Below are positions 4,178 through 5,418 of a stretch of DNA of 64,000 bases, piece by piece; within the stretch, counting starts at the first letter, position 1, and every line of letters starts with the position of its first letter. The notes under the pieces are model-generated. The model saw nothing but the letters and a program-made list of their open reading frames with translations, was not told where the DNA came from and did no database searches. The translations under genes and the position numbers were made by a program. The DNA lies in NCBI GenBank assembly GCA_016839055.1, contig JAEKNX010000019.1, positions 1-64,000 of the forward strand, given 5' to 3'. Source of the stretch: Spirochaetales bacterium (GTDB lineage: Bacteria > Spirochaetota > Spirochaetia > UBA9216).

Positions 4178-4251
4178 GGGCCTATAGCTCAGTTGGTTAG
4201 AGCACCTGACTCATAATCAGGTGGTCCAAGGTTCAAGTCCTTGTGGGCCCA
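4178..4251 (+). tRNA. tRNA with CAU anticodon (Met or Ile2)
   Basis: GGGCCTA acceptor, TAGCTCAGTTGGTTAGAGCA D-arm, CCTGACTCATAATCAGG anticodon arm, CAAGGTTCAAGTCCTTG T-arm, TGGGCCC-A 3' end. Elongator Met versus Ile2 (lysidine) cannot be decided by eye. Confidence 0.92.
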
Positions 4252-4257
4252 TTAAAA

Positions 4258-4296
4258 AACCGGATAGTACTTCATGTACTGTCCGGTTTTTTATTT
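4258..4296 (+). terminator. Intrinsic terminator downstream of tRNA
   Basis: aaccggatagtacttcatgtactgtccggttttttattt hairpin followed by T-tract. Confidence 0.8.
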
Positions 4297-4309
4297 GGGC
4301 TGGGCCCCG

Positions 4310-4411
4310 AGGACTTGAACCGAAACATCGGCGCGAACACCTGGAGCGCAAACCGGCACGACGCCGGTTTAGATGTAGAGGCGGCCTGGAGCACTGAGGC
4401 ACGAAGCCGAG
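4310..4411. repeat. 102-bp repeat, copy 1 (tRNA-associated structured repeat)
   Basis: aggacttgaaccgaaacatcggcgcg...gaggcacgaagccgag; identical by eye to 4501..4602. Confidence 0.92.
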
Positions 4412-4421
4412 GTGTGGAAGG

Positions 4422-4440
4422 CAAGTCCTTGTGGGCCCAT
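4422..4440 (+). repeat. Ectopic copy of tRNA 3' end (19 bp)
   Basis: caagtccttgtgggcccat identical to tRNA 3' end plus one flanking base at 4234..4252. Confidence 0.9.
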
Positions 4441-4442
4441 GA

Positions 4443-4485
4443 AAAAGAGAGAATTGCTACATAGTAGTGATTCTCTCTTTTTTTT
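4443..4485 (+). terminator. Terminator-like hairpin after the second tRNA-3'-end copy
   Basis: aaagagagaattgctacatagtagtgattctctctttttttt. Confidence 0.75.
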
Positions 4486-4500
4486 GTGGCTGGAACCATA

Positions 4501-4602
4501 AGGACTTGAACCGAAACATCGGCGCGAACACCTGGAGCGCAAACCGGCACGACGCCGGTTTAGATGTAGAGGCGGCCTGGAGCACTGAGGCACGAAGCCG
4601 AG
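4501..4602. repeat. 102-bp repeat, copy 2
   Basis: Same 102-bp sequence as 4310..4411; followed by a longer GC-rich extension to about 4656. Confidence 0.92.
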
Positions 4603-4656
4603 CGCCAGTGAGGGAGGCGGGTCGGCGGAAGCAGCAGGGATGCTGCGACCAGAGAC

Positions 4657-4674
4657 CAAGTCCTTGTGGCCCAT
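4657..4674 (+). repeat. Third copy of tRNA 3' end, one G shorter
   Basis: caagtccttgtggcccat versus caagtccttgtgggcccat. Confidence 0.85.
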
Positions 4675-4717
4675 GAAAATTCAGTGGCTAACGCAGAGAT
4701 TTCATGGCAAATCTATT

Positions 4718-5418
4718 ATGATTAACCGGGCATTTGAAATTGGACAAATCTTAGAAAAGTTGGAGCAATTCCCCGTCGTAGCAATTATAGGCGCCAGACA
4801 GGTCGGAAAAACAACTTTAACACATCAGATTGAAAAGATAGCAGACCAACTTATGCATAGGTTCGATCTGGAAAATCCTGAAGATCTGGCCCGATTGAAT
4901 GATCCAATGCTTGCACTTAAAAACCTTAAAGGCATTGTAATTCTTGATGAAATTCAGCGCAGAGCTGAGCTGTTTCCTGTTCTTCGTGTATTAGCAGACT
5001 TAGTGTTGCTGATTCAACTGTAAAAAGCTATCTGGATACCGGGCTGCTTCACGGACTTCTGAACCTTACACAACAGGAAGAGTTGGAATCACATCCCAAA
5101 GTTGGTGCCTCAGGGGAAGGATTCGTAATCGACCAATTGCGCCGTCATTTGAGAACGGCATCAAATAAATGCTTTTTTTGGGCAACACATAACGGAGCTG
5201 AACTGGAAATGCTGACAGTAAGAGGAATTTATAAAAGGGGCTTCGAAATTAAACGAACAAGCAGCCCGAAAATTACTCCTTCTATGCGGTCAGCATTACA
5301 GGATTTGAAACTAAACACATTGGATGTAATCCAGGCATGGGAAGATACATTTCAATTATCTGATAATATCCGGGCTGTCTCAATATCAAGACTGCTGGAT
5401 GATATTGAACCTCTCTAA
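4718..5418 (+). pseudogene. Decayed AAA_14/DUF4143-type ATPase
   Basis: Walker A VAIIGARQVGKTTLTHQ and Walker B GIVILDEIQRR in the first ORF (to 5023); the C-terminal part ADSTVKSYLD...HPKVGASGEGFVIDQL...EMLTVRGIYKRGFEIKRT continues in another frame; the central region expected for this family is missing. Confidence 0.8.

Follow-up and report, generated by a model that had tools for sequence, protein, structure and literature searches.

The window, a 64,000-nucleotide stretch of the genome of a Spirochaetales bacterium (the host), contains one tRNA gene followed by two tandem units, and these repeats look like members of an undescribed family of tiny, gene-less mobile cassettes. The chances are roughly even that the array is a two-unit example of small, non-coding, non-autonomous DNA cassettes which, throughout the spirochaetes, occupy the T-arm end of tRNA and tmRNA genes.

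The array behind the tRNA(CAU) gene

The layout of the array is given in Table 1. A tandem repeat behind the CAU tRNA gene had been described in a first-pass annotation, and its coordinates are correct: the tRNA 3' end (4234-4252) recurs twice, once identical and once with one G lost, and two 102-bp blocks (4310-4411 and 4501-4602) are identical to each other. Each block opens, as had been reported, with the reverse complement of the T-arm, which in the window units reads GGACTTGAACC. The terminator claimed for each unit corresponds to a terminator-like hairpin in each spacer (4248-4298; 4442-4482). The inverted pieces had been interpreted as 3' halves of other tRNAs; they are the inverted T-arm of the same tRNA.

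Table 1. Features of the tRNA(CAU) array, in window coordinates
Feature	Position	Strand	Description
tRNA gene, anticodon CAU	4178..4251	+	ARAGORN: tRNA-Met; Rfam tRNA 75.7 bits
T-loop C56 of tRNA(CAU)	4234	+	nt 57 = 4235
Spacer 1	4252..4310	+	Terminator-like hairpin, arms 4248-4270 / 4276-4298
Unit 1, inverted T-arm	4311..4321	+	5' strand of closing stem P1
Unit 1, folded core	4322..4421	+	Ends GGC together with C4422
Direct copy 1 of tRNA 3' end	4422..4440	+	C56 to A73 and T; 3' strand of P1
Spacer 2	4441..4501	+	Terminator-like hairpin unlike that of spacer 1, arms 4442-4460 / 4464-4482
Unit 2, inverted T-arm	4502..4512	+
Unit 2, core	4513..4656	+	First part same as in unit 1; a second core type follows (GAGCGCCAGTGA...GACCAGAGAC)
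Direct copy 2 of tRNA 3' end	4657..4674	+	Minus one G; array ends here

The cores of both units are GC-rich. Unit 2, which extends to 4656, is the longer one and combines two core types as a hybrid. The covariance model described below matches unit 1 at 4311-4431 (77.2 bits) and unit 2 at 4502-4627 (43.4 bits). A longer, 125-bp repeat pair in the window shares 92% identity, and as a single strand the array folds 12.9 s.d. better than dinucleotide shuffles. A broken ATPase gene (window 4709-5418) adjoins the array; it comprises an AAA_14 part and a DUF4143-like tail, the middle having been lost.

Extent of the family

The 102-bp core is part of a conserved, folded element of about 120 nt. Comparison of the array with the host genome recovered related cores at four further places, three of them behind other tRNA genes (Leu-CAG, Met-CAU, and Pro-CGG) and the fourth behind a displaced tRNA-Leu 3' part; each is framed by the sequence of its own tRNA. 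When one genome of each species was scanned with a degenerate pattern based on the core's 3' part, at least about 45 spirochaete loci with units were identified. Matches to this pattern in other organisms were due to chance, with a best model score of 27 bits. A covariance model (R1) built on 21 sequences found 12 units in the host genome, and it detected units in 25 of 60 relatives, in 57 of the 158 sampled genomes of the class Spirochaetes (E <= 1e-9), and in two further genomes that belong to the phylum but not to the class. The single-contig genome G052 carries 23 units, in arrays with a period of mostly 180-230. Occurrence is patchy among related species. Several matches fall at contig ends, indicating that the arrays break genome assemblies; identical units on two contigs of another genome (G003) reflected one array split by assembly and not a jump.

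The family is present in about one third of the sampled species of the class, and it is absent from Rfam and from the open literature searched. No Rfam family matched the units above its gathering threshold, the sole match being tRNA; relaxed thresholds returned tRNA together with matches far below gathering scores. A search of open-access full texts turned up no account of the repeats.

Units are matched to the tRNA gene that they follow

The first-pass annotation had proposed a tRNA-linked repeat family, which could have failed had the core occurred in the window only or had its copies been unlinked to tRNA ends. Neither was found: the host genome has 12 copies, and the gene upstream is a tRNA or tmRNA in 152 of the 179 aligned units collected. 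Unit-bearing genes include 28 anticodon kinds of tRNA, plus tmRNA. Behind the tRNA the order is a spacer of ~50 nt, often with a terminator-like hairpin between tRNA and unit; a short inverted T-arm; the core; GGC; and a direct copy of tRNA nt 57–73. The distance from the gene to the first unit is usually 48-69 nt, and the unit spacing of about 165-235 bp leaves too little room for a typical gene.

Both arms were compared with the tRNA in 147 units. The direct copy agrees with the tRNA directly upstream at 84-99% per position from nt 57 to 73 and is perfect over this range in 87/147 units, with agreement decreasing to about 55% beyond nt 73; against other tRNAs, variable positions match at mostly 25-45%. 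The inverted copy agrees with its own tRNA at 95-100% over nt 57-63 and at about 65% at the next two positions, then near chance. Because the inverted arm matches only nt 57-65, it constitutes a tRNA-specific partner of 7-9 bp for the direct copy, forming the stem (P1) that closes the core. It is usually not a full inverted duplicate, and some units keep 12-14 of 14 matching bases. The arm sequences are GGANTYG(AACC) and (GGC)RANTCC. In nearly all units the core-side junction is sharp, lying between GGC and nt 57 (C56/57); the outer end of the direct copy is at the tRNA end or a few bases past it, and a further terminator-like hairpin often follows. The core itself has no tRNA match, the arms alone matching tRNA, so the earlier suggestion that the repeat is "tRNA-derived" is not supported. 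The family represents a natural, many-times-repeated experiment on how the ends of a small element stay fitted to a wide range of targets.

Arrays also occur behind displaced 3' parts of tRNA or tmRNA genes (L143, L155, and L168), resembling the right end of larger integrated elements; these cases suggest that larger integrated elements and arrays share target genes.

Insertion and turnover of units

Insertion is evident from the comparison of empty and filled sites. At tRNA-Leu(GAG), the site is empty in G000, where the tRNA end continues into AATATAATCCCTTT..., and filled in G001 and G006, where a spacer, inverted arm, core, and second 3' end precede the common downstream sequence; the insert therefore comprised the spacer, the inverted arm, the core, and a single tRNA 3' end. 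Insertion adds a spacer, an inverted T-arm, a core, GGC, and one copy of tRNA nt 57-73, and it leaves the tRNA whole with a second 3' end behind the insert, in agreement with the prior suggestion that insertion doubles the tRNA 3' end. The tRNA-Ser(TGA) site provides a second, less clean example. At tRNA-Ser(CGA), a decayed relic of a unit remains in G000 (L015 / L045, host contig C17) where G001 has an intact unit.

Arrays hold identical, different, and hybrid cores, and at tRNA-Ala(CGC) the same two cores occur in opposite order in two genomes of one genus. Of 149 cores, 27 have their nearest relative in another genome at the same tRNA (expected 6 +/- 3), and 33 have it within their own genome at a different tRNA site; close core pairs at different sites reach 88% identity in G052 and 90% in G021. 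This pattern shows that units are inherited and that cores are also shared between tRNA sites, the arms remaining specific to each site. The changes within arrays can be explained by ordinary recombination between repeats, which may also keep the direct copies alike; the seeding of a new tRNA needs more than this.

The excess of relatives at the same tRNA (27/149 vs 6 expected) would be anticipated if the units were mini-elements of phage-type tyrosine integrases, that is, non-autonomous, double-stranded att cassettes each locked to its tRNA, with cores spread by gene conversion. The direct repeats of the tRNA 3' end and the restored tRNA are likewise in keeping with such elements, as is the array behind the host tRNA-Pro(GGG) gene (L041), whose final unit copy continues into a fragment of a tyrosine-recombinase gene (identified by a TGMRMGEIRALQ motif in the sequence). 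We nonetheless consider this origin quite unlikely: no autonomous relative with an integrase gene was found among 177 units checked for inserts, the upstream copy of the 3' end lying within about 130 nt in 150 of them and none having a large insert; Phage_integrase accounts for only 2 of 89 neighbouring proteins; and the conserved multi-helix core is not explained by the model alone. No protein family occurred in more than three of these 89 neighbours, so that no partner gene was found beside the units. The initial view of repeated, non-coding units at a single site with no adjacent integrase is supported.

A conserved fold, probably of DNA

Pairing of the inverted T-arm with the downstream 3' end can close a conserved multi-helix fold on the tRNA-sense strand, and covariation across the class is very strong. 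In a 116-row alignment, which was fitted to the tested structure such that part of the covariation excess is built in, standard pairs occupy 86.9% of pair cells (60.9% in shuffles), double changes are seen in 30 of 33 pairs, and the covariation score is 0.599 as compared with 0.05-0.08 for slid partners. The fold consists of the closing stem P1; a branch whose stem is often of tandem G.A pairs, with two hairpins; and a branch with a GCCT/AGGC stem, a GGA/GGA internal loop, and a hairpin. Some of the small hairpins listed in the first-pass annotation belong to this fold, and the others do not. Hairpin loops often read A(N)GGAN or ACGAN; a CsrA sponge acting through ANGGAN loops was considered and dropped, as many loops read ACGAN.

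G.U pairs are scarce in the unit helices (0.7% in P4, 2.0% in P5, 1.8% in P2, and 2.5% in P1) relative to the stems of 182 tRNAs from the same loci (5.7-8.4%). By plain folding the share is 3.6% in cores and 9.9% in shuffled cores, as compared with 10.1% in spacer hairpins and 11.3% in tRNAs, and under DNA parameters 160 of 165 units fold more stably on the sense strand. G.U intermediates would be expected in RNA helices that had undergone so many double changes; their near absence leads us to infer that selection has acted on a structure of DNA, most simply on a folded single strand, though very strong selection for RNA stability could mimic the depletion. The family is also a natural experiment on selection for single-stranded DNA folds.

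The strong covariation could also be expected of a functional non-coding RNA, for example a putative read-through transcript from the tRNA promoter with a role in tRNA metabolism or regulation, in which P1 and the tRNA-like 3' end would serve processing or stability. The sense strand folds better, the units lie directly behind tRNA genes, and their 3' end is identical to the tRNA end and often followed by another terminator-like hairpin. However, G.U pairs are 3- to 10-fold rarer than in tRNAs of the same loci; units are patchy in related species and scattered over 28 anticodon kinds; a terminator-like hairpin often parts unit from tRNA; and tandem duplication and relics resemble a selfish repeat. 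Taken with these features, a functional RNA is unlikely.

Candidate mechanisms of movement

The units may be non-autonomous, T-arm-targeted cassettes moved in trans. A trans-acting, site-specific recombinase would bind the folded single strand of a unit and would join it to the target's T-arm, in a manner similar to the joining of a folded attC site to attI by an integron integrase. The host encodes a candidate, an integron-type integrase of 422 aa (TIGR02249, 387 bits, cut-off 265) whose best solved relative is V. cholerae IntI4 (E 3e-69). Carriers encode such an integrase more often (28 of 57) than non-carriers do (20 of 101; odds ratio 3.9, p = 2.6e-4, uncorrected for ancestry), and one array has a broken intI 1.3 kb away. 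IntI is nevertheless absent from half of the 57 carriers, and its association with units is absent or reversed within families (e.g. f26, f13, f28); in one genome (G031), IntI is present although none of the tRNA genes examined is followed by a unit. Several IntIs have nearby attC-like sites of the usual TAAC/GTTA type, such that the description "solitary" integrase is wrong for several carriers. Additionally, the unit junction is not G/TT, and a signature common to attC sites and units is not significant overall (p = 0.26), with one striking case (G168).

Given the carriers lacking IntI, the failure within families, the attC-like sites, the junction, and the signature, whether the units are folded-strand, site-specific cassettes is a balanced question, and the identification of the mover with an integron-type integrase such as the host's is speculative and doubtful. 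Similarly doubtful is the full proposal of a tRNA-anchored integron, in which an IntI-type enzyme would use T-arms as attI-like sites for ORF-less, folded single-strand cassettes with tRNA-matched arms. If it were true, essential tRNA genes would be recombination platforms throughout a bacterial class; an IntI-type integrase that moves units would be an enzyme working without gene cassettes, on essential tRNA targets. Further points count against the cassette model in general: no excised unit, circle, or recent insertion was observed; a tRNA would be damaged by a cassette bearing the 3' end of a different one, which makes the seeding of a new tRNA hard to explain; and much of the array dynamics can be explained by ordinary repeat recombination.

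The sharp core-side junction, the variable extension past the tRNA end at the other junction, and the short, guide-like inverted arm would also suit insertion at the T-loop by a retroelement or transposase (target-primed reverse transcription, Y1/HUH, or TnpB-type), with a target duplication of about 17-20 nt. This is very improbable, as the host genome has no match to a reverse transcriptase (RVT_1), Y1_Tnp, or TnpB despite its 12 units, neither reverse transcriptase nor Y1 shows a significant association with carriers (p = 0.10 for each), and no unit lies beside the RAYT genes of carriers. A TnpB/Cas12f-like nuclease was present in 1 of 60 genomes, a non-carrier.

Comparison with known systems

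Like integron attC arrays (Treponema chromosomal integrons, PMC3607928; review, PMC8946536), the units stand in tandem at a fixed primary site; an arm pair of ~7-9 bp closes a structured site, and unit order changes. The units may also resemble attC in being imperfectly palindromic, strand-asymmetric sites whose fold is selected in DNA, to which the covariation, the G.U depletion, and the more stable sense strand would correspond. Unlike them, the arms are a tRNA T-arm and not RYYYAAC/GTTRRRY, the junction is C56/57 and not the G/TT crossover, and the targets are many genes instead of one attI. Integron cassettes usually carry an ORF; the units have none, nor an integrase in cis. According to a 2013 survey (PMC3607928), integrons are confined to Treponema among the spirochaetes. 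Many families of the class have IntI matches that exceed the curated cut-off, which suggests that this statement is out of date. Integrases with attC-like sites of 100-171 nt occur in spirochaetes outside the Treponema denticola type (L309, L314, L315, L350, L351, and L355), and several of these have an N-terminal extension of about 95-170 aa.

Integration into tRNA genes usually leaves direct repeats of the tRNA 3' end and a restored tRNA. The units resemble tyrosine-integrase elements (attL/attR) in both respects and differ in being gene-less, about 165-190 bp long, and built on a conserved multi-helix core, in carrying a tRNA-specific inverted arm, and in lying behind many tRNA kinds per genome; they encode no integrase, and no gene family is enriched beside them. 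The units resemble both a cassette array at a fixed site and a tRNA-targeting mark, yet fail the defining tests of both, because they have no genes or integrase of their own and no GTTRRRY arms.

REP/BIME repeats mobilised by RAYT (Y1) are similarly small, non-coding, palindromic, and present in several copies (PMC3733652), but the units are always tied to T-arm genes by matching arms, the host has no Y1 transposase, and RAYT loci of carriers have no unit. In several spirochaetes, a GGGGACGGAGG repeat borders the RAYT genes on their flanks (L290-L297). With the structured RNAs of Rfam, including tRNA and tmRNA, the units share strong conserved secondary structure and tRNA-gene neighbours, but they match no family, and the G.U depletion argues against selection at the RNA level.

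Other repeats and genes at tRNA loci

Several other arrangements were observed near these loci. Directly behind the host tRNA-Met array lies a gene of the RNA repair nucleotidyltransferase family RlaP (L049:1806-2738). Behind tRNA-Thr(CGU), a different array (L009; period about 100-115) repeats the tRNA anticodon arm together with the T-arm and acceptor end, with a small hairpin inserted between. In G052, a palindromic repeat (GGAACATGGCGAGTAGCAGG...GACCAGG) lies inside direct copies, between the T-stem and the acceptor part (L212, L214, and L215). Finally, the sequence CCCTTT(C/A)GGG(G/A)TAAGAGATTA...GACGCC(AGTATT)GACGCC is common to L046, L002, L227, L239, L213, L229, and L231; it comes after the last tRNA 3' end at Leu-GAG, Leu-CAG, and Ile/Met-CAU sites of several genomes, and it looks like the attachment arms of an integrative element.
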